Shown here one piece after another: positions 3,485-62,129 of a DNA stretch of 64,000 nt. The stretch spans positions 1 through 64,000 of the forward strand of contig CALJOA010000002.1 of NCBI GenBank assembly GCA_937981585.1, in the 5' to 3' direction. The first letter of the stretch is position 1; each line of letters begins with the position of its first letter. The position numbers and the translations under genes were made by a program. The notes under the pieces were generated by a model that worked only from the letters and a program-made list of their open reading frames with translations, had not been told where the DNA came from and ran no database searches. Source of the DNA: an uncultured Pirellulaceae bacterium. GTDB taxonomy: Bacteria > Planctomycetota > Planctomycetia > Pirellulales > Pirellulaceae.

Positions 3485-9127
<5,643 letters not shown>

Positions 9128-9300
9128 AAAATTCACCTGCTCCTTCGTAATGTATGTCTGGTTTTTTGTGTGTTGTTTGTACCGCTGATGTTCGCGTTTT
9201 TGAGATAGCCTCTGCCACGCGGGGCATTTTGATCAACCAACCTTGCGAAGCGTTTGAGCGACAAAACTCAAACGATCGCGTTGGTTACTTCGGTTAGCCC

Positions 9301-12300
9301 TTAGCCACCTCGTCGTTTTTCCAATTGCATATTCAAGGCAAGACCACGAATCTCGTTGGTCAAAACGTCGAAGCTGGCTGGCGTGCCGGCCTCGAGCGTG
9401 TTTTCGCCTTTAACCATTGACTCGTAAATCTTGGTTCGTCCTTCGACGTCGTCCGATTTGACGGTCAACAATTCTTGCAGAATGTAAGCGGCTCCGTATG
9501 CTTCAAGAGCCCAAACTTCCATCTCACCAAATCGCTGGCCACCGAAACGGGCTTTACCACCCAACGGCTGTTGCGTGATCAACGAGTAAGGTCCGGTGCT
9601 TCGAGCGTGGACTTTGTCGTCAACCAAGTGATGCAGTTTCAACATGTAGATGTATCCAACCGTCGTTTCCTGCGTACAGGGAACACCAGTTCGACCGTCA
9701 TACAGCGTGTGCTTTCCGTGCGACGGCAGACCGGCTTCGGCAAGACAATCATTGATCTCCGCTTCGGTCGCCCCATCAAATACAGGAGTGATCGCCTGGA
9801 AACCAAGCTTCGATCCTGCCCAACCAAGGTGCGTCTCAAGGATCTGACCCACGTTCATTCGCGACGGAACGCCCAACGGATTCAACATGATCTGAACTGG
9901 AGTTCCATCCTCCAGATAAGGCATGTCTTCGACCGGAAGGATCTTGGAAATCACACCTTTGTTACCGTGACGGCCAGCCATCTTGTCGCCGACCGAGATC
10001 GTTCGTTTGGTCGCGATGTAAACCTTGACCATCTGCAACACGCCGCTGCGAAGTTCGTCGCCGCGCTTCATACTGTTGACGGTGCGATCACGAACGTCGA
10101 TCGTTTTCTCGACAGCAGGCCACTGTTCCTTGTAGATTGCTTCGAGCTGTTTGATCTTGTCCTCAGACCGCATAGAAGAAGTCACAGATTGGAGCCGGAA
10201 GTTCACGGCTTTTTCGCCGACGAACTTTGGATCCTGATCCCGAACCAGCGGAGTTTCGTCTTCGTCGGTCAACGTTTTGCCGACAACCTTCTCCATTGCC
10301 GAGATCATTTCGCCAAATACGGTCGCGATTTTCTCGTTCCCGTCGGCTTCGGCGGCCTTAAGGTCTTTCTCGAAGACTTTTCTTTCTTCTTCCGAGAGGC
10401 TCATGCGGCGGGAGAATCGCTGGGTATCAATTACGATTCCTTCGATGCCTGAAGAAACTTCCAGTGAATCGTTTTTCACGTCTTCGCCCGCACGACCAAA
10501 GATCGCGTGAAGCAGTTTTTCTTCCGGAGTCAATTCAGTTTTCGATTTCGGCGAAACTTTACCGACCAGGATGTCACCCGGTTTGACATAGGTACCGACC
10601 TGAATGATTCCGTTTTCGTCGAGGTTGCGAAGTGCTTTTTCACTGACGTTAGGAATGTCGCGAGTGAATTCCTCACGACCCAGTTTGGTTTCGCGGACTT
10701 CGACGTCGTACTCTTCAATGTGAATCGAAGTGTAAGTGTCGTTGCGAACGAGCTCTTCGCTGATAATGATCGCGTCTTCGTAGTTACAGCCGTCGAACGA
10801 CATGAACCCGACCAAGACGTTTCGCCCAAGTGCCAATTGGCCCTTATAGGTCGCGGCACCGTCAGCAAGGACTTCGCCTTTTTCGACTTTTTGACCTGGC
10901 TTGACCAGTGGTTTCTGGTTCTGACACGTTCGCTCGTTCAAGCCAACGTACTTCTTGAGATCGTAAACGTCAGATCCAATTTCAATTCGAGTCGAATCAA
11001 CGTAGGTGATCTTTCCGGCTCGGCGCGCCCGAACGAGCATGCTGGAATTGTTGGCGACTTGCATCTCCATTCCGGTTCCAACGATCGGCGGCTCAGCCAC
11101 CAATAGTGGAACAGCTTGTCGCTGCATGTTGGAGCCCATCAACGCGCGGTTGGCGTCGTCGTGCTCAAGGAAAGGAATCAAACCGGCCGAGACACCAACC
11201 ATTTGAGCTGGCGCAATGTCCATGTAGGTGACCTCTTCAGGTGCACACAATTCAAAGTCAGCTTTAAAGCGGGCGACAATGTTGCCAGCCAGCGATTTGA
11301 GTCCAACGATGTGGCCGTTCTCGATGTAAGTATCCGCCGGAGCAACGTAGGCTTCGGTTTCTTCGTCGGCGCGAAGCCAAGCGATCTCGTCGGTTACTTT
11401 TCCTTTTTTGACAACCGTATAAGGCGTCACAAGGAATCCATAATCGTCAACGCTCGCGTAAATCGCCAGCGAAGAAATCAAACCGATGTTCGTGCCTTCC
11501 GGCGTTTCGATCGGACAGATTCGACCGTAGTGGGAAATATGAACGTCGCGAACTTCGAAGCCCGCACGTTTACGATTCAAACCACCAGGACCAAGAGCTG
11601 AAAGACGACGCTCGTGAGTCAGCTGTGACAGTGGGTTGGTCTGGTCAACGACCTGAGACAGCTCGCCACGTCCGAAGAAATACTCGATCGCCGCTGAGAT
11701 ACTCTTTGGATTGACGAGGCTTCGCGGAGTCATGTCGTCCTGCTCTTTGAGGCTCATTCGCTCTTGAACAGTTCGGCGAAGTTTCAAGAAGCCTTTGCGA
11801 AGTTCATCACAGGCAAGCTCATCAATCGTTCGCAGACGACGATTACCCAAGTGGTCGATGTCGTCGACGTAAGCGTCTCCTCCAGGAGTCGACAGCTCCA
11901 AGATATACTTCATACAGGCAAGGATATCGTCTGGACGAAGCGTCATTTCTTTTTCCGAAACGCCGAGATCCAACTTTCGGTTGATGCGGAATCGACCTAC
12001 GCGGCCCAGTCGGTATCGGTTGGAATCGAAGAACTTCTCGCGGAACAACGTGCGAGCTTTTTCCAGCGCTGGCGGATTACCCGGACGCAGACGCTGGTAG
12101 ATTCGCAGAAGCGCTTCTTCGTGACTGGAAGTCGCATCGTCGATCAACGAGTTGAAAATCAGAGGCGATTTAGGCGCCGGCATGATCTCGACGGTTGTGA
12201 TGTCCGAGAGACAGATGATCTCAGCGGCTTCTTTGGTGATCTTGTGACCGACCTCGACGATGATCTCGCCAGCTTTTTCGCTTTTGGTTGGGTAAACGAT

Positions 12301-13038
12301 ATCGTCAACGGCGATCTTGCCTTCGAGCTTCGCGGCAGATCGCTTGTCGACGACTTTGACCTTCGCCGTTTTGTAGAACGCGCGGATGATCGCGGAGTCT
12401 TCGCCGTACTTTGGGTCCATCGCCCGTAGTAATGTCAACGCCGAGAACTTACCGCTTTGATCGATCCGGACAGTCAGCGCGTCTTTCTTGGTCGCGTTGA
12501 CTTCGATCCAGCTTCCCCGCTCAGGAATCACTCGGCAACTGGCAAGCTTACGATCCGAAGTCGTATCCGACTCCATCACAAAGTCGATACCAGGAGATCG
12601 GTGAAGCTGACTGACGACGACACGCTCGGCACCATTGATGATGAACTCACCACCACCAAGCATGATCGGAATGTCACCCAGAAAGACTTCTTCTTCAACC
12701 GGTTGTTCTTTCTCCAGACGTAGCCAAACGCGGAACGGTTGTCCGTAAGTCAGGCGCAGCTGACGACACTCTTCAGGAGTGTAGCGCGGTTTGCCAAGCT
12801 CATAACGAACGTAGCTCAACGCCAGCTTTTTGTCATAGCTTTCGATCGGAAAGATCTCTTTCAAAACACCTTCGATGCCTTGGAGCTTTCGTTTCTCGGG
12901 CGGACAATCCGTCTGAATGAACGCTTGGTAACTGTGGGTTTGGATTTTTGTCAAATCGGGAGGAATCTGGTAATTCCGTCCACTTCCAAACACGCGAGTT
13001 TTTTCTGGTTGTAATCGTCGCTCGACTGGGGTTGCCAT
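9301..13038 (-). CDS. rpoB: RNA polymerase beta subunit
   Basis: Beta subunit of RNA polymerase, 1,245 aa. The rifampicin-pocket segment reads [27 protein letters not shown] across two motifs; the residues matching E. coli Q513, D516, H526 and S531 are unchanged, and the [13 protein letters not shown] block follows. The C-terminal [20 protein letters not shown] is canonical. The start [13 protein letters not shown] is reasonable and no upstream extension is evident. It lies 500 nt after rplL, an unusually long spacer, and 173 nt before rpoC. Confidence 0.98.
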
Positions 13039-13538
13039 AAGCGCAGAATCTCCGGTATCAGATTAAAGCGGGTATTTCAATTGGTGATCGCTGGATGACA
13101 GATCGACTGCCGACAGTTTCAGTGAAGCGAAGGCCGGAATCGCTGAAAGCGCACGCAAAGAAACGCGACAAGCGCGTACCTCTTCCCTGCACATACTCTG
13201 GGTCGTAAAAAACTTACCAAGAGTGCGATTCGAAAGCATACAGTTCCCTGAATTGGCCTCCACGGACCGAACGTTCAAAAATGGCAAAAGCCACTTTGAC
13301 CGGGTTCGACGTGTCGACTGTGAAACGAACACACTGGAGTAATCCTGTTGCGATCCGAAGACCGGTTTTGATCAATCAAATCCAGTCATGGTGACTCCAT
13401 CCGGTTCTCGCCCTGAATCCTTTCAGGAACAGGCAAACGCCGTGGACCACTCCCAGCCACGACGTCGCCATATTTTCAACGCAGCCACGCTCGGTTGGAG
13501 CGCGGGTTTCTCGCCGCCCAAGAACGGACGGCGTCAAA
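13039..13538. other. 500-nt rplL-rpoB spacer
   Basis: No convincing gene lies here; the short ORFs have no recognisable family or good start. A small stem CTGAA/TTCAG sits near 13410-13423. In other bacteria this interval holds an attenuator or RNase processing site controlling rpoBC relative to rplJL. That role here is inference. Confidence 0.5.
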
Positions 13539-13949
13539 CTACTTGAGTTCGACTGCACCACCAGCAGCTTCAACGTCTGCCTTGATCTTGTCAGCATCTT
13601 CCTTGGAAGCGGCTTCCTTCAAAGTTGCTGGGCAACCTTCGACCATTTTCTTGGCATCCATCAACGACGCGCCGGTGATTGTCTTGACGACTTTCACAAC
13701 GTCGAGCTTCTTGTCGCCAAAGCCAGTCAGAACTACATCGAATTCTGTCTGGGCTTCGCCGCCACCGTCATCGCCACCACCAGCTGCAGCAACCATAACG
13801 GCACCACCGCCAGCAGCGGCTTCGATGCCGTGCTCGTCTTTGAGGTAATCGCCAAGCTCTTTGGCTTCTTTAAGTGTTAGTCCAGCGATCTTGTCGCCCA
13901 TCTCTTTTGCTGAAGCCGAATACTCGACTGTTGCTGTTTCTTCTGACAT
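13539..13949 (-). CDS. rplL: 50S ribosomal protein L7/L12
   Basis: Acidic stalk protein that recruits translation GTPases, 136 aa. The N-terminal dimerisation part (GDKIAGLTLKEAKELGDYLK), the Ala/Gly hinge (AAAGGGDDGGGEAQ) and the C-terminal domain (FDVVLTGFGDKKLDVVKVVK...LMDAKKMVEGCP) are all present. ATG at 13949 is chosen over GTG at 13958 because AGGGTG sits 6 nt upstream of the ATG. It lies 251 nt after rplJ, a spacer that contains a strong inverted repeat. Confidence 0.96.
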   Translation of the reverse strand: MSEETATVEYSASAKEMGDKIAGLTLKEAKELGDYLKDEHGIEAAAGGGAVMVAAAGGGDDGGGEAQTEFDVVLTGFGDKKLDVVKVVKTITGASLMDAKKMVEGCPATLKEAASKEDADKIKADVEAAGGAVELK

Positions 13950-14044
13950 TGGAGTCACCCTTTCTTCGTATCACTGAGCGAGTTGAGTGGCGGCACTCGA
14001 TGGAGGCACTCAACGGACTCAAAAATTACTATCTCAAATTTCAA

Positions 14045-14090
14045 ATCTGGAATTCAAACTTGGAACTCAAACCGAAACTGAATTCCAGAT
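14045..14090 (-). promoter_or_regulatory. Inverted repeat between rplJ and rplL
   Basis: Perfect 11-bp arms ATCTGGAATTC (14045-14055) and GAATTCCAGAT (14080-14090) enclose a 24-nt loop, about 95 nt upstream of the rplL start. No T-run follows on the minus strand, so it is not a simple terminator. It could be an RNase processing site or a protein-binding stem that sets the L7/L12 to L10 ratio. Confidence 0.5.
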
Positions 14091-14200
14091 CTGATTGACT
14101 GCGTTTGAACGAACCATTTTGAACGAACATTTATCGAACACCACGCCGCGAGGCGATCGAAAATCTATATCGACGACAACCAGATGGTTGCCGAGTGCTC

Positions 14201-14725
14201 TTACTCTTCCTTCTCTCCAACCTGTTTGATCTGGCTGGCCAATTTGGCCCCTGGACCTTTCAGCTGAGCGGCCAGGTTTGCACCGGGCCCGAGAATTTGA
14301 CCAACGAGCATGCTGAGCTGTTCAGCACGAGATGGCCACTTACTGATCTCCTTGATCTTTTCGGGAGTCAGCTTCTCCTTGTCCATCACTCCACCAAGAG
14401 CCGAGAATTTCTCGAACTCTTCTTCGTCCTTGTGCAGTTCGTGTACTTCCTTGACCAGCGAGACAAAATCCTCGCCACCCCAAAGTACAGCCTGAGTTCC
14501 CTTGGAACCTTCGAAAGCGCCGGCCAATGAAGTGCCTTCGGTCGCTCGGACCGCGAGGCTGTTCTTCACAACCATCAACCCGATTCCTTTTTCCCGCAAT
14601 CGCTTTCGCAGAGCCGAGGTCGCATTGGCATCGATTCCGATTACGTTGGCGGTCAGGCAATCTTCAACGCCATCAAGGCGATTTACCAAGTCCTTGGTCA
14701 ACAAATCTTTTACAAACTTACTCAT
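14201..14725 (-). CDS. rplJ: 50S ribosomal protein L10
   Basis: Base of the L7/L12 stalk, 174 aa. The N-terminal rRNA-binding domain (NVIGIDANATSALRKRLREKGIGLMVVKNSLAVRA) and the C-terminal helix that binds L7/L12 dimers (LSMLVGQILGPGANLAAQLKG) are recognisable. It sits between rplA (89 nt upstream) and rplL, the usual order. In E. coli L10-L12 autoregulates by binding the leader; no clear leader mimic is seen in the short 89-nt gap. Confidence 0.96.
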   Translation of the reverse strand: MSKFVKDLLTKDLVNRLDGVEDCLTANVIGIDANATSALRKRLREKGIGLMVVKNSLAVRATEGTSLAGAFEGSKGTQAVLWGGEDFVSLVKEVHELHKDEEEFEKFSALGGVMDKEKLTPEKIKEISKWPSRAEQLSMLVGQILGPGANLAAQLKGPGAKLASQIKQVGEKEE

Positions 14726-14814
14726 GGCTTCACTCTGTTTTGTTTGAGCGATCAGTCTTCGATCGCATCATGGTTTGAATTGTTTGGTATCTACGGTTGG
14801 CTAACAGGCCAGAT

Positions 14815-15489
14815 TTAGGCTGCCAGCGGAATCCCGGGGGTCATTGTCCCGGCAAGCGAAATGTTCTTGATGTAGTTGCCCTTGAGCGAGTTTGGCTTGA
14901 GCGTCTCAATGAACTTCAAAAACGCGCTAAGGTTGTCTTGCAACTGCTCAGGAGTAAAACTCAGTCGACCCAAGACAGCGTGAATGTTTCCGGTGTCGTC
15001 GTTTCGGAACTCGACCTTTCCGGCTTTGTATTCACTGACGGCCTTGGCGACATCGGGGGTCACAGTTCCGGCTCTCGGTGACGGCATCAAGCTCCGCGGT
15101 CCAAGCACACGACCCAACGGACCCACGACGCCCATCATGTCTGGCGAAGCGATGCAAACATCGAAATCAAACCAGCCATCGGCGACCTTCTTGGCCAATT
15201 CTTCTTCGCCGACTTCGTCCGCCCCGGCTTCGCGAGCAGCATCTGCTGCGGCGCCTTTGGCAAAGACGATCACTCGCTGGGTTTTTCCGATTCCGTGTGG
15301 AAGCACGATTGAACCTCGAACGATCTGATCGGCTTGCTTGGGATCGATTCCCAAGTGCATATGGATCTCAACCGTCTGATCGAACTTGGTGCCTTCGAAT
15401 CCCTTGAGAATCTCGCAGGCCTTCTTCAAATCAACAGGAGCTTCAGGAACCGACTCCAATAGTGCTTTGTATCGCTTTGAACGCTTCAT
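14815..15489 (-). CDS. rplA: 50S ribosomal protein L1
   Basis: L1 stalk protein, which also represses its own operon in E. coli, 224 aa. The conserved [28 protein letters not shown] region (read across two motifs) and [16 protein letters not shown] match the family. It follows rplK after a 141-nt spacer, longer than usual. The start [15 protein letters not shown] fits family N termini. Confidence 0.97.
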
Positions 15490-15630
15490 GATCTAACTTT
15501 GCTTGTCTTGTGTTCTTTTTATTTTCCTGTGTACGCCCGGCACCATCCAATGGCTGCGGCAGCTGGCTGATCCAAGTGTTCGTTTAGCCACAGTTGTGCT
15601 GTTAACAAACTGGCCAACCGAACCCTCAAA

Positions 15631-16056
15631 CTAGCCCTCAATCTCGATGCCCATGCTGCGGGCAGTTCCGGCGATCATTCGACAGGCGTGCTCCATGTCT
15701 CGAGCATTCAAGTCTGCCATCTTCTTCTCGCAGATCTCTTCAACCTGCTTCATAGTGACCTTACCGACCTTGTCCCGGTTGGGCACTCCGGATCCTTTTG
15801 CGATGCCAGCAGCAAGCTTGAGCATCGCCGCAGCCGGCGGGCTTTTGGTGATAAAGTCGAACGTCCGGTCATTGTAAACCGAGACAACAACAGGAATCGG
15901 TGTTCCATTGAACTCTTTGGTTCGATCGTTGAACTGCTGAACAAACTGACCGAGATTGATCCCGAACTTACCCAGCGAAGTACCGACCGGAGGGGCAGGT
16001 GTAGCCTGACCACCGGGAACCTGAAACTTTGCTTGCCCTGTTAATTGTTTCGCCAT
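15631..16056 (-). CDS. rplK: 50S ribosomal protein L11
   Basis: Binds the GTPase-associated centre of 23S rRNA, 141 aa. It contains the Pro-rich N-terminal signature [20 protein letters not shown] and the C-terminal rRNA-binding segment [10 protein letters not shown]. The N-terminal part is where thiopeptide resistance changes usually fall and looks normal. It begins 59 nt after the nusG stop. Confidence 0.97.
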
Positions 16057-55736: not shown

Positions 55737-55901
55737 ATGGATGCATTTTTCAATTTTATCGGTCGCTATCTCAACAAACTCTTCCGGGAACTGGGCCAAA
55801 TCGCGCACCATATTGACGGCAATGGCTGGGTTTGTATTTCAATGGTTCTCCTAGTGATGGGCTGGTTCTGGCTCAAAGGGAACAAAGTCAAAGGCGCTTA
55901 A
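55737..55901 (+). CDS. Small single-span membrane protein
   Basis: 54 aa: an amphipathic N-terminal helix (FFNFIGRYLNKLFRELGQIA), a short loop, one membrane helix (WVCISMVLLVMGWFWL) and a basic tail KGNKVKGA. The architecture and clean stop suggest a real small protein, but the ribosome binding site (AGG 13 nt upstream) is weak. Function unknown. Confidence 0.5.
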   Translation: MDAFFNFIGRYLNKLFRELGQIAHHIDGNGWVCISMVLLVMGWFWLKGNKVKGA

Positions 55902-56141
55902 ACAAAAGCGATTTTCCACCTGCCCATCGAACTCGTGGCCCAGACTTTCATAATGAATGAAGGCTCACTAGCAACTGAGGGACTAAAGTATCGCGTCGGC
56001 AAACGCGTCTCTCCAATGGCGCGATCTGTACGTCAGTAACCCTTCTGGGGTTGAGCTTGGCTCTGTTGCCGTTGACCATCAACAAGCTTCTGAAAAATGG
56101 AGCCAGTCAAATTGCCCTCATCTATCTTTTTTGTTTGCTCG

Positions 56142-57117: not shown

Positions 57118-57153
57118 GCTGTAGCTTGGAAGCAATCGTCGCTCGGATACAAT
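57118..57153 (+). CRISPR. Solitary type II-C CRISPR repeat
   Basis: A single 36-nt repeat beginning GCTGTAGCTTGG and ending CTCGGATACAAT, 49 nt past the cas2 stop codon. Identification rests on the tracrRNA anti-repeat at 62021-62056: 34 of 36 positions pair (24 contiguous from the repeat's 3' end apart from none, with mismatches at repeat positions 8 and 12, and G-U pairs at 1, 4 and 7). Its ends resemble the Neisseria II-C repeat (GTTGTAGCT...TACAAT). Inside it TTGGAA, 16 nt and TACAAT form a promoter-like layout, as in Neisseria, where each repeat drives its own crRNA. No second copy lies within one spacer length on either side, so there is no array here. Confidence 0.85.
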
Positions 57154-57202
57154 ACTTTTGCCCCAAGTCAATTTCAGTAAAGCACTTGCAACTAATTTTA
57201 AA

Positions 57203-57532
57203 TCAGAAAAGGAGGAGTTGATCGGGAGTCCCCTCTGGTTTTAGCTTGTTTTGTCCAAGAAAAACTTCCATCTTACCGAACTGGCGATCTGTCACTGCGA
57301 CCAGCCGTATGTTTCCGGCCGGCGGCAAACGTTTACGGATGCGCTGGCGAAACAAGTTCGCCGCCTCTTCATTGGCACAGTATCTAACATAAATTGAAAA
57401 CTGCAATCTTTGAAATCCCTCGTTCAAAAGGAAAGTTCGAAAACGCGTGTACTCTCGTCGAGCCACTTTGGTTGTAACGGGCAGATCGAACATTGCAAAC
57501 AACCACATGGATTTATACCCCGACAGAGCCAT
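57203..57532 (-). CDS. cas2: CRISPR-associated protein Cas2 (type II)
   Basis: Small ferredoxin-fold partner of Cas1 in spacer integration, 109 aa. The first strand WLFAMFDLPVTTK carries the conserved Asp16. The middle has FLLNEGFQRLQFSIYVRYC, typical of type II Cas2, and the C terminus is VTDRQFGKMEVFLG. It overlaps the cas1 end by 20 nt, so it is probably translationally coupled. An in-frame Met at residue 9 is a possible alternative start. Confidence 0.95.
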   Translation of the reverse strand: MALSGYKSMWLFAMFDLPVTTKVARREYTRFRTFLLNEGFQRLQFSIYVRYCANEEAANLFRQRIRKRLPPAGNIRLVAVTDRQFGKMEVFLGQNKLKPEGTPDQLLLF

Positions 57533-58436
57533 TTTTTTCGCTCACATTTGAAATTAGATCTGGAATCAACAATCGTTTTCGTTTGCCCGCGTACACGTCG
57601 ACTAGGCTTGACGAAATTCGATTTGAAATGTCGAACAGCGTTCGCTCGGCCCCTTCGCAAGTGAATCGTCCAAGTAACACGCTCAAAATGTTTCGTTTGA
57701 TCTCAGGTGTGAGATTTCCGTACTGGGCGAAGTGGGTCAGCCCAGCGGCGACCTCCACATCAATTACCGGACGAAGCGGCTCCATCAAGTCGTCGGCAAG
57801 CGGGAACATGCTGTATCGGTTGTGATGATGAATGCCGATCGCTGGATGAAGTCCGCTGGCACAAATTGATCGCGCAACAATGGCCCGCAGCACAGCGTAG
57901 CCGTAATTCAAAATCGCGTTCAATCCTGGCAAATCCCGATTGCGGCGAAAGGTATCGTCATTGAAAAGTCTTGCCCAATACCGCCGCGCAGCACGAGCCT
58001 CGACATTTGCTGGATCACCTGATTTAACTTGGCTGATTAAACTGCCCAAGCCACCCGAGTCATTTTGGACGAACTGCAACGCGGCCGCTTGGTGTTTGAT
58101 TTTGGCGCGGACGGTTTGTTGCCAAAGCCGCTTGTTGGTTGGCAATGATGCGTTCTTCTGATTAGCAAACCGCTCAACTTGCACATGATTTGCGGTGAGC
58201 GGCAGCAACATTCCCACCGGCAGAAAATTTCGATTGCAAATCACCAACATACCGCCGGCTTCCAAGATCCCAGTTAGGACAGAATTGGAAAAAGTGACTT
58301 GGCCCTGTGAGACAATAATGACGGACGCTTCGCTCAGTGGAACCCGACACGTTTTTGATTCGCGTTCGACGACCAACTGTTTATGCTTAACGCGCAATCT
58401 TGCAGGTTCTGTGGCGAAATCTAAAATTCGGTGCAT
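57513..58436 (-). CDS. cas1: CRISPR-associated integrase Cas1 (type II)
   Basis: Metal-dependent integrase that inserts new spacers, 307 aa from ATG 58436, which has AGG upstream; the frame to 58508 is not needed. The likely catalytic set is Glu146 (NVEARAARRYW), a His in GLHPAIGIHHHN (about 203-204) and Glu219 in DLMEP. The N-terminal beta domain (ARLRVKHKQLVVERES) and TGILEAGGMLVICN fit type II Cas1. It follows cas9 after an unusually long 330-nt gap and overlaps cas2. All parts of an adaptation module are present except csn2/cas4, as expected for II-C. Confidence 0.95.
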   Translation of the reverse strand: MHRILDFATEPARLRVKHKQLVVERESKTCRVPLSEASVIIVSQGQVTFSNSVLTGILEAGGMLVICNRNFLPVGMLLPLTANHVQVERFANQKNASLPTNKRLWQQTVRAKIKHQAAALQFVQNDSGGLGSLISQVKSGDPANVEARAARRYWARLFNDDTFRRNRDLPGLNAILNYGYAVLRAIVARSICASGLHPAIGIHHHNRYSMFPLADDLMEPLRPVIDVEVAAGLTHFAQYGNLTPEIKRNILSVLLGRFTCEGAERTLFDISNRISSSLVDVYAGKRKRLLIPDLISNVSEKNGSVGV

Positions 58437-58765
58437 GAAAAACCTCAGGATGCTGAAAGCGTGCATCCTGCGGCGCGATGGGAAGATCCATTGGGATGCC
58501 TTCAGCATAGTTGGAGCAGATCACAACGCAAAAACGTTAGCACTTGGGGAAGAAAAATGGCGAATGCCTTTTGACAGGCGCCAACAGCTCGAAACTCAAG
58601 TTCGCGGCGAAAATCGCACAAAGTAGGGCGGACTAACGTCTATGTGGTGCGAAAGTACGATCTCGTGATTACAACAAGAACTACACCTACAGGATTGGCG
58701 TCACGGAGTTTCGCACCAACAAAAGCAAGTGATTGATTGGGCCAAGCAGCCTTCTTGCGTCGCTG
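58437..58765. other. 330-nt gap between cas9 and cas1
   Basis: No gene called. A 9-bp inverted repeat GGTGCGAAA (58646-58654)/TTTCGCACC (58709-58717) encloses 54 nt. A plus-strand in-frame stretch ending in YTYRIGVTEFRTNKSK and a stop could be a gene remnant, but is too short to assign. Most II-C operons have cas9 and cas1 almost adjacent, so this may be an insertion scar, a separate cas1 promoter, or both. Confidence 0.45.
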
Positions 58766-61700
58766 CTAATCGTTGGCATCCAATACGCTACCCAATGGAG
58801 TCACAACAACTTTTTTAGCTTTATGCTTCATCAACTTTGAAAGCGAAAATCGCAAGCGACTTCCGTCCTTGCGGCGGATACCTGCTGGGCGGGCATCGTT
58901 GTGGTTGACGCACTCGATGTCCCCATCTGATATCGAAAGGACTCTAACAATCTTGGAATTACCGTCAGAACCGGTGATTTCCAAGTGTTCTGTTGGGCAT
59001 AGCGAGAACTTGAAAACCTTGGGAGCGTGATCGCGGTTGACAACTTCCAATCCGTTTCGCTTTCTCGTCATTGCGTCAAAACGGGAGACTAAAATTCCCT
59101 CCAACTTCTTGCCATCCCCGTCGTCATTCAGAACAGCAACGATTTCCATATGACTATTGGAACCAGGGTTCACGTAACGCCGTCCATTACCTTTACCCAC
59201 CGGCATTGGCTTGTCAGACTTGCGGATTCTAACCCGATGAATTGGAATGACTCGTGAAGGATCTTTCTTACCGAGCAAGTGCGGATGATTGGCGGGATCG
59301 GCAAACGCTTTGGCAGGCGGTTGCCCGATAGCTTTCAAAGCCTTTTGCACGATGCCGCGTATGACCGGATCGACAATCGCTTCGACTTCTTTGGCACTGA
59401 GCGATTGAATCGGTTTTCGAACGTGATGAATCGACTCGCCCTTTGCGTTCTTACCTTTCGGATGACTGAGAATCGTTTCCTTATGCAGGGAACCATTAAG
59501 CCGTTTGTTGACGCGAGACGACACGATCAACTCATTGATTGCCGCACGGACATCCTGTTGAAATGTTGGCCACGGAGGATCAATCGGTTCGAACAGCATT
59601 TTGGTATTTCGTCGTTCTGCTGCTTCGGCCGCTTTGCTCATCTTTTTAACCAAGCCCGGCGACGTCACGGCAATTACGATCGCGTCAATCGCATGGTGGC
59701 GGTGGTCGGCACGTTCTTTCTTAGCCGGATGCCCAAGAATTCGATTCAAGTCCCAATTGTTTCGCAGGTTTGCGGTACAACGTCCGGGCAACGCCTGAAC
59801 ACGCTGAACTCCGTCAGCATCATTGATACCGCCGAACAGAAGTGCCAAATACTCGCAAGCCTTGCGGCTGATGTAGCGAGTATCGTTAAGCATTCGATTG
59901 GTGAATTCATCCTTTGGCAAATCGTCCTTGCGCATGAATAACGCCAATTTTCGACTGGCTAGACTTCCTTGAAATCGGTTCACGCGGGCCAGCATTTGAT
60001 CGAAGTCATCTCGTCCTCCAAAAGCCTCAAATGGAGTTTGGTTGGATTTATCGCGGTTCCATTTGACATGGCACAGCGTTTTGTTGACGAATGAATTATC
60101 AAAGCTGCGACTGTAAGGGACGATGTGTTCGATTTCGAATTGTGGGCTGACAACCAACTGCTTCATATTGATGGACTTCCCTGAATAAGGGCAGACCCAA
60201 CCGCACTCTTCGGCGAGCCGGACTTTAAGAACATTGGCGCGATTGCGAAGCAACGATTCGTCTTTGGTTTCGGCGACAATCTTTTCCGCAGCTTTCGTCC
60301 TAGCTTTCTCGTTACGATCGCGAATTTCAGAAAATGCTTCCCGGCGTTTCCTAGCGTGCTTCAGATCACGAGCCAATTCGATTCGAACTTTGAAAGGTTT
60401 GCCGAATTCTCGCACGATGGCATTGACGACCTTTCGGACTTCAGTGAGCGTTCTCATGACGGACGGATTTTTGACTTGATCGAAGCCTGGAGCATTGAAA
60501 ACGGGAGGCAAAAATTCCAACGGTTCCGTCGACTCGAATTGTTCAGGATAAATCTCACGTCGAATCGCGGCGTACTGCTCGCCGGCCTCAAGTCGAGGAA
60601 GGAGGCGGCTGATCGCTTTCCTGGAGTGACTGGCGTAGCCCTGTTCCAGCACGATTTTGGAAACTGCGTCGGCCTGCCCGCAGTCAAGCTTCCAAGCCGT
60701 TTCCAATCGGCGGGCAAGCGCCGATTCCGATTGAAAGCCAAGGATTTCATCGACCAACTCAGCTTGTTTGCGAGGTTCAAGTTTATCCCAAAAATCAGGG
60801 ATTAGCTTTGTGAGCTTAGCCGCGGTTCGATTGCCGAGGATCTTTTTGTCACCGCCTTCTTCAAAGTTAAACGTGTATCCTTTCTTAACAGGTTTCTGCT
60901 TGCCATCTTTTTCGACGTGACCGATAGTAACTTTTTTAGTCAGCTTCAACAGTTTCCGAACTGCTGCCCAACTCATGTCGCCTTGTTTGTCGAGTTGTTC
61001 GATCAGTTGGCTTCGGTCTTCCTCTGACAATTCAAGAATCTCCCCATCGGGAGCAATCACTCTCAGGTCGTTAACCCGTTGCAGCATCCGAAATTTTTGA
61101 AAAGCAACCGTCGAAATTAGTGCGCGACGTTTGGTCGGTTCCAATTCGCATTTGCCAATCAAATGCTTCTGCGATTTCAACGGTCGTTGATCAAAGATTG
61201 ACGCATAGACTGTCTCTCGAAGTTCGGCAGGACAGACATCCGGTTGTAGGGAAAACTGCTTGTTCCAGATTTGGTTGAATTCATCGACAAACATTTCGCG
61301 GGCCGTCCATCGCCCACGAATTCGTTCCTCTTCTGGATCGACCGTCGAAAAATACTCGCCAACAGTTCGACTCCCAGTTTGGAGAATCGCATCTGCTAAA
61401 TCAGAAATCCCGGTTGCAACCACGCCTCGGTCTTCATCGCTGGTTTCGGTTTTTCGATTGGAGCGGTAGCCACGCCGCTGAGCCAGATGATAAATGGCTC
61501 GCCCCAATTCAAACGGCGTAACTCTTTCGTCAAGAGCTTTGGCCCGCAGAAGGTACGGCAGCAAATGTTGTTCGGTATGGGAAGGTTGATCGACAAGTGC
61601 TGTTCGCAATTTCGCATCAAGCGCCAGCAGGGCGTCATGTCTAGCTTCATTACTGTCGTCGGTTTCGGGCAGCAGCCAATTTTTCGATAAGATTAGATAG

Positions 61701-61987
61701 AGCGATCGCATTCTTCGCTTGCGTCGCCAAGTCGATCTTCGCAAACCACGGGCGTTTCGACGCCCCAACGCTCTTGGTTCATCTCGGCCTGCCGAAATTT
61801 TCTCGGAACCGCCATCAACGCCAGCGTCAAAACGGCGGACGCCGCATTTAAGCAATTTTTTTGGTTCACCCTTTTTGTTGCATTTGACGACCGCCCATCC
61901 TACCGATGCGGGGCCAAGATCAAGCCCAAGTAAAAAGTGATGTTTTTTAGTGGCAGGAGATGAGGAGGAATTAGAGTTTCGTGTCAT
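58766..61987 (-). CDS. cas9: CRISPR RNA-guided endonuclease Cas9, type II-C
   Basis: Dual-RNA-guided DNA nuclease, 1,073 aa, in the compact II-C size range. RuvC-I is LLGLDLGPASVGWAVV with Asp23. The Arg-rich bridge helix spans about 76-94 (RRNARGLRRSTWRRKRR). RuvC-II is VRIELAR with Glu537. HNH is EIEHIVPYSRSFDNS with His621 and Asn644 (WNRDKSNQTP). RuvC-III is DHRHHAIDAIVIA with His765 and Asp768. Two Cys (595, 599) precede HNH. The C-terminal about 280 residues are the wedge/PAM-interacting region; the PAM cannot be read from sequence. ATG 61987 is chosen because the frame upstream to 62089 reads through the tracrRNA anti-repeat and promoter. All catalytic residues look intact, so the enzyme should be active. 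Confidence 0.97.
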   Translation of the reverse strand: MTRNSNSSSSPATKKHHFLLGLDLGPASVGWAVVKCNKKGEPKKLLKCGVRRFDAGVDGGSEKISAGRDEPRALGRRNARGLRRSTWRRKRRMRSLYLILSKNWLLPETDDSNEARHDALLALDAKLRTALVDQPSHTEQHLLPYLLRAKALDERVTPFELGRAIYHLAQRRGYRSNRKTETSDEDRGVVATGISDLADAILQTGSRTVGEYFSTVDPEEERIRGRWTAREMFVDEFNQIWNKQFSLQPDVCPAELRETVYASIFDQRPLKSQKHLIGKCELEPTKRRALISTVAFQKFRMLQRVNDLRVIAPDGEILELSEEDRSQLIEQLDKQGDMSWAAVRKLLKLTKKVTIGHVEKDGKQKPVKKGYTFNFEEGGDKKILGNRTAAKLTKLIPDFWDKLEPRKQAELVDEILGFQSESALARRLETAWKLDCGQADAVSKIVLEQGYASHSRKAISRLLPRLEAGEQYAAIRREIYPEQFESTEPLEFLPPVFNAPGFDQVKNPSVMRTLTEVRKVVNAIVREFGKPFKVRIELARDLKHARKRREAFSEIRDRNEKARTKAAEKIVAETKDESLLRNRANVLKVRLAEECGWVCPYSGKSINMKQLVVSPQFEIEHIVPYSRSFDNSFVNKTLCHVKWNRDKSNQTPFEAFGGRDDFDQMLARVNRFQGSLASRKLALFMRKDDLPKDEFTNRMLNDTRYISRKACEYLALLFGGINDADGVQRVQALPGRCTANLRNNWDLNRILGHPAKKERADHRHHAIDAIVIAVTSPGLVKKMSKAAEAAERRNTKMLFEPIDPPWPTFQQDVRAAINELIVSSRVNKRLNGSLHKETILSHPKGKNAKGESIHHVRKPIQSLSAKEVEAIVDPVIRGIVQKALKAIGQPPAKAFADPANHPHLLGKKDPSRVIPIHRVRIRKSDKPMPVGKGNGRRYVNPGSNSHMEIVAVLNDDGDGKKLEGILVSRFDAMTRKRNGLEVVNRDHAPKVFKFSLCPTEHLEITGSDGNSKIVRVLSISDGDIECVNHNDARPAGIRRKDGSRLRFSLSKLMKHKAKKVVVTPLGSVLDAND

Positions 61988-62016
61988 TTGCTTACTCGTA
62001 TAGAAGAGAATACAAT
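61988..62016 (+). promoter_or_regulatory. Putative tracrRNA promoter
   Basis: TTGCTT (61988-61993), 17 nt, TACAAT (62011-62016) on the plus strand. The predicted start (about 62022-62024) falls exactly at the 5' end of the anti-repeat. It lies within the cas9 leader, next to the cas9 start codon. Confidence 0.65.
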
Positions 62017-62020
62017 CGAG

Positions 62021-62048
62021 ATTGTATCCGAGCGACGATTGCTTACAA
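62021..62048 (-). promoter_or_regulatory. Putative cas9 promoter inside the anti-repeat
   Basis: Read on the minus strand, the anti-repeat gives TTGTAA (62043-62048), 16 nt, TACAAT (62021-62026), predicting a start near 62014 and a leader of about 27 nt before the cas9 ATG. The solitary repeat has the same layout (TTGGAA-16-TACAAT). With the tracrRNA -10 it forms the inverted repeat TACAAT-CGAG-ATTGTA (62011-62026). Confidence 0.5.
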
Positions 62049-62102
62049 ATTATAGTAAGTGAGCTTTTGCTCGCGCACGGTTTGCTCAATGAGTACCCGT
62101 TG

Positions 62103-62129
62103 ACGCCTCCCTCGCGGGGCGTTTTTTTT
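62103..62129 (+). terminator. Intrinsic terminator of tracrRNA
   Basis: ACGCCTC pairs with GGGGCGT (one G-U) around a 6-nt loop and is followed by a run of at least seven T. It forms the last hairpin of the tracrRNA. Confidence 0.88.

Follow-up and report, generated by a model that had tools for sequence, protein, structure and literature searches.

The locus analysed here raises the question of why a CRISPR-Cas system with complete cas genes and a tracrRNA is accompanied by one repeat and by no spacer. It lies within a window of 64,000 nucleotides, which is part of a 76-kb contig (C2) of a draft genome comprising 3.5 Mb in 158 contigs, with a completeness of 80.2%. An earlier note on this DNA had described a complete type II-C locus reduced to one repeat, had called this state unusual and had offered as readings a naive array, an array lost by recombination, an array moved elsewhere and a Cas9 with a non-immune role. 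The description was upheld in the present analysis, and among the readings offered the loss by recombination fits best. The coordinates of the deduced features are compiled in Table 1.

Table 1. Features of the type II-C locus, with positions counted from the first nucleotide of the window.
Feature	Position	Strand	Basis and remarks
CRISPR repeat, 36 nt	57118..57153	+	sole copy in draft genome; 22 perfect pairs with tracrRNA anti-repeat
Promoter-like pair TTGGAA-16-TACAAT within repeat	57126..57153	+	directed toward leader and cas2; consensus match only
Leader, 49 nt, between repeat and cas2 stop	57154..57202	+	motif 1 CCAAG 57163-57167; motif 2 ACTTGCA 57184-57190
cas2, 109 aa	57203..57532	-	TIGR01573 and PADLOC Cas2_II
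cas1, type II, 307 aa	57513..58436	-	TIGR03639; catalytic residues aligned with 4zkj
cas9, type II-C like, 1073 aa	58766..61987	-	TIGR01865, 672.8 bits; Neisseria Cas9 closest among solved relatives
tracrRNA (anti-repeat 62021-62055, hairpins, terminator ~62102-62129)	~62021..62129	+	inverted match to repeat, fold of repeat-tracrRNA chimera and terminator scan; ends approximate

The cas2, cas1 and cas9 genes are the only ones between the repeat and the tracrRNA, and the lack of csn2 and cas4 in this interval is in keeping with type II-C. All three reading frames are open and gave good matches to their own families. The deduced Cas9 protein contains the RuvC and HNH domains with their catalytic residues, as expected of type II-C, and an alignment with Neisseria Cas9 showed that the catalytic positions are kept in the motifs GLDLG, IELARD, EHIVP...NK and HHAxDA. 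In the HNH motif 'EH' takes the place of 'DH', as is normal for the order, where 38 of the 60 matches have it. Likewise, the comparison with a solved type II Cas1 revealed that the triad of E, H and E is kept. The statement that cas9, cas1 and cas2 retain their catalytic residues is thereby substantiated by alignment for Cas9 and Cas1. A gap of 329 nt without an assigned gene (58437-58765) separates cas9 from cas1; it measures about 600 nt in G001, the genome with the closest locus, and almost nothing in several other relatives.

Pairing between the tracrRNA and the repeat extends over 31 of 35 positions, including 22 consecutive perfect pairs, and the fold of a repeat-tracrRNA chimera yielded a z-score of -10.5. 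A tracrRNA with an anti-repeat to the repeat of its own locus is a further property of type II-C systems, and the anti-repeat pairing, the fold and the terminator support the earlier claim that a full tracrRNA is encoded. A search of Rfam with the tracrRNA gave no match. On the minus strand, the anti-repeat contains a promoter-like pair (TTGTAA-16-TACAAT, 62021-62048) that is directed at cas9, and it may double as a promoter of the cas genes.

The repeat has the sequence GCTGTAGCTTGGAAGCAATCGTCGCTCGGATACAAT, and a pattern search with up to three mismatches identified it as the sole full-length copy in the draft genome, no multi-spacer array being found elsewhere in this 80.2%-complete assembly. 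Its 22-nt core matched two sites genome-wide, namely the repeat itself and, in inverted orientation, the tracrRNA anti-repeat (62021-62042). No degenerate second repeat was seen between 55500 and 57700, where the best ungapped match had 18 mismatches and was no better than that of shuffled repeats. Accordingly, the genome-wide and the degenerate-repeat searches bear out that the locus has one 36-nt repeat only and no spacer bounded by two. The repeat was present in this species only among the 28 species of the genus that were searched, and its core had no match in viral contigs. Since a type II-C array requires at least two repeats and a spacer, the locus is classified among the II-C cas loci and not as a working array. 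Promoters inside the repeats are an established property of type II-C systems (PMC12080349).

The identity of the remaining repeat was deduced from its surroundings. Two motifs are conserved in the leaders of the order: one resembling [CG]CYAAR at positions 9-14 from the repeat, found in 29 of 33 leaders (13 in the best of 2000 shuffled sets), and one resembling ACTTGCR near position 31, found in 27 of 33 (9 in the best shuffled set), although these counts are somewhat favourable because the motifs were picked on the same 33 leaders. Both are present at this locus, and we know of no description of either. The conserved sequence TCAGAAAAG to the right of the leader was first read as another leader motif and was rejected, as it represents the end of cas2 (LLLF-stop). 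The stretch from the repeat to cas2 is nearly constant in length across the order, and degenerate repeats, when present in relatives, are located at the array end distal to cas2. In type II-C systems, spacers are acquired between cas2 and the adjacent repeat, that is, the last repeat (PMC6008519). Because the leader is conserved, degenerate repeats lie distal to cas2 and the published acquisition site agrees, the retained repeat is, as judged from its sequence context, the acquisition repeat at the spacer-acquisition end of the array.

The composition of related loci was compared by searching 397 genomes of the order for Cas9; 62 of them had a match, and the loci were marked for cas genes and arrays. 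A distance of about 50 nt separates the cas2 stop codon from the start of most arrays, and apart from the single-repeat loci these comprise 2 to 81 repeats at this site, as counted in about 20 loci with the outer array end inside the contig. Three of these approximately 20 loci have one repeat: the locus described here and those of G066 and G068, whereas G246 and G170, whose single repeats directly adjoin a contig end, were left out of the count. This comparison of related genomes at the same locus, which the earlier note had suggested, together with published descriptions of single-repeat collapse (PMC7056967, PMC8047081), indicates that calling the state unusual was an overstatement.

The two other single-repeat loci resemble the present one in that a single intact repeat lies at the conserved spacing from cas2 and the genome contains no further copy; exactly one was counted both in G066, a single contig of 6.6 Mb, and in G068. 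They differ from it in other respects. The G066 locus is not clean, as a putative insertion element with 40-nt inverted ends and an open frame of 334 aa is located between cas9 and cas2, with cas1 displaced to the other side of this element and a diverged repeat-like piece near the cas9 end; the Cas9 protein of G068 is more distant, with 39% identity. The loci of G173, G323 and G327, which have no adjacent array, were considered as further empty loci and rejected, as their arrays are located elsewhere in the genomes. They belong to a clade (L137, L139, L142, L148, L149) with the gene order cas9-cas2-cas1 and without an adjacent repeat; G173 and G323 additionally contain a second cas9 gene with an array, for which neither cas1 nor cas2 was detected. 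In the single-contig genome G083, a distant cas9 gene (L042) was found for which cas1, cas2 and an array were not detected nearby. A Cas9 scan of genome contigs added one distant alphaproteobacterial locus that was not useful for comparison.

In congeners without cas genes, a tRNA-Asp gene lies close to an ORF for a small membrane protein and to a TPR gene. Here the II-C locus is flanked on one side by the small ORF, recognised by eye in the alignment at 55739-55902, and on the other by the TPR gene. Related Cas9 proteins are encoded in 2 of the 28 species of the genus, this one and G001, in which the Cas9 locus and the tRNA-Asp/TPR pair are on different contigs. Since the tRNA-Asp and TPR genes adjoin in cas-less congeners and Cas9 is restricted to two species, the II-C locus most probably represents an insert of some 6.3 kb that is specific to this lineage. 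Between 56131 and 57101, two overlapping ORFs on the plus strand, in different frames, resemble one frameshifted gene and end 16 nt before the repeat; neither matched a known family, and the second has a weak homologue in G011 only. The same genome also encodes, on contig C94 (L184, G000:C94:15000-30658, 7552-15659), a complete type I-C system with cas3, cas5, cas8c, cas7, cas4, cas1 and cas2. Three repeats of its array are kept, and the contig ends where the fourth would start.

One repeat, an intact leader and complete cas genes constitute the picture of a collapsed array, and on balance we favour, by a modest degree of belief, an intact type II-C locus whose spacers were really lost by recombination or replication slippage. 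Such an event between the outermost repeats, which we infer along with the array itself, would have removed the array while sparing the leader and a single repeat. This is consistent with the single genomic copy of the repeat beside intact cas genes and tracrRNA, with its conserved spacing from cas2, at a site occupied by arrays in relatives, with the preserved leader motifs and with the one-repeat state of G066 and G068; moreover, both the collapse to one repeat and its refilling have been described (PMC7056967, PMC8047081). It is weakened by the draft status of the genome (80% complete) and by the relatives available for comparison: they have arrays at the homologous place, but no sister strain was found in which the same insert holds a filled array. 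The main rival, which appears rather unlikely, is an assembly collapse, in which the cell has a multi-spacer array and the assembler joined the flanks via one repeat, dropping the repeat-spacer units. The fragmentation of the draft into 158 contigs at 80.2% completeness speaks for it, and many arrays of relatives are located at contig ends, so arrays do disturb assemblies. On the other side, the repeat occurs on no other contig, the one-repeat state exists in the single-contig genome G066, and the assembler broke the type I-C array of the same assembly at a contig end and did not collapse it, although this is the one other array examined and hence a single control.

The remaining explanations accept the assembled sequence and differ in the history or role of the locus. 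A locus that entered this lineage, or was passed on in it, as a leader with a single repeat, and that is still to receive its first spacer, would agree with the lineage-specific insertion between the tRNA-Asp/small ORF and TPR genes and with the presence of related Cas9 in two species of the genus; the naive array is in this sense possible, but the closest locus, in G001, has 21 repeats, which makes an ancestor with an array the simpler guess, and we regard an array that was never filled as improbable and not as the best fit. A working array in trans, in the unassembled part of the genome, has real precedents in the order, as the cas loci of G173, G323 and G327 have their arrays elsewhere. At these loci, however, the cas genes have no repeat next to them, in contrast to the leader and repeat found here, and the same kind of search that located their separate arrays detected no second copy in the assembled 80% of this genome; the relocation of the array is thus disfavoured and seems very improbable. 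Least credible of all, to a degree that makes it extremely unlikely, is that Cas9 is kept for another role, for instance with an extraneous guide from the sequence upstream of the repeat. Type II-C systems are known to produce extraneous crRNAs from the outer repeat (PMC12080349), and here an ORF upstream of the repeat is oriented toward it, with no intervening terminator detected. Yet the 20 nt that precede the repeat matched no second site within the 64,000-nt stretch when up to three mismatches were allowed, and they had no perfect counterpart in viral contigs; cas1, cas2 and the conserved leader, which would be dispensable for such a role, are kept. The non-immune reading found no positive evidence. 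In general, before a non-immune Cas9 is inferred from a cas locus that lacks an array, the assembly should be checked, as should the presence of single repeats and of arrays in trans.

If the spacers were lost from an intact locus, tracrRNA and Cas9 would presently be made, but no spacer crRNA and hence no memory would be expected, because no spacer-repeat unit lies behind a repeat promoter. The type I-C system would offer another source of immunity and may render this loss tolerable. Insertion would still be possible because the repeat that survives lies directly beside the leader and cas2; at this repeat, a spacer could be added by Cas1-Cas2 and the repeat duplicated. After one insertion, the promoter in the duplicated outer repeat would transcribe the spacer and the full 3' repeat as a complete crRNA precursor, so that, with a promoter in every II-C repeat, the first acquired spacer would be transcribed at once. 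Spacer uptake at a single repeat next to the leader has been described, and an engineered single-repeat array of the Legionella type I-F system was refilled (PMC8047081, PMC7056967). The locus is therefore probably empty but rewritable, its activity being presumed from its sequence. It could further be speculated that empty single-repeat II-C loci are a maintained and recurrent 'blank slate', selected despite the lost memory while another CRISPR type covers immunity; leader and one repeat would then be the smallest unit that is functional after one acquisition, because each repeat has its own promoter. We consider this extension unlikely. In any case, the locus represents a natural II-C system in a state where adaptation must begin from nothing, with an acquisition site recognisable by two leader motifs, and it permits a test of whether one promoter-bearing repeat is enough to restart Cas9 immunity.

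With respect to known systems, the locus resembles the type II-C CRISPR-Cas9 systems of the Neisseria, Campylobacter and Riemerella kind in the gene order cas9-cas1-cas2, the tracrRNA upstream of cas9, the 36-nt repeat with an internal promoter-like pair and the leader between cas2 and the array, and it differs from them in having one repeat and no spacer. In this respect it is similar to the collapsed array of the Legionella type I-F system (PMC7056967; reviewed in PMC8047081), which likewise combines a leader and one repeat with complete cas genes and lost spacers; the present locus is of type II-C and natural, whereas the single-repeat array of Legionella was engineered and its natural collapse was inferred. 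The state as such has accordingly been described for CRISPR arrays, and the locus is a good natural instance of it and does not constitute a novel kind of system. What it adds is that the one-repeat state recurs in the order, in one case in a single-contig genome, and that a conserved leader marks the locus as probably rewritable.
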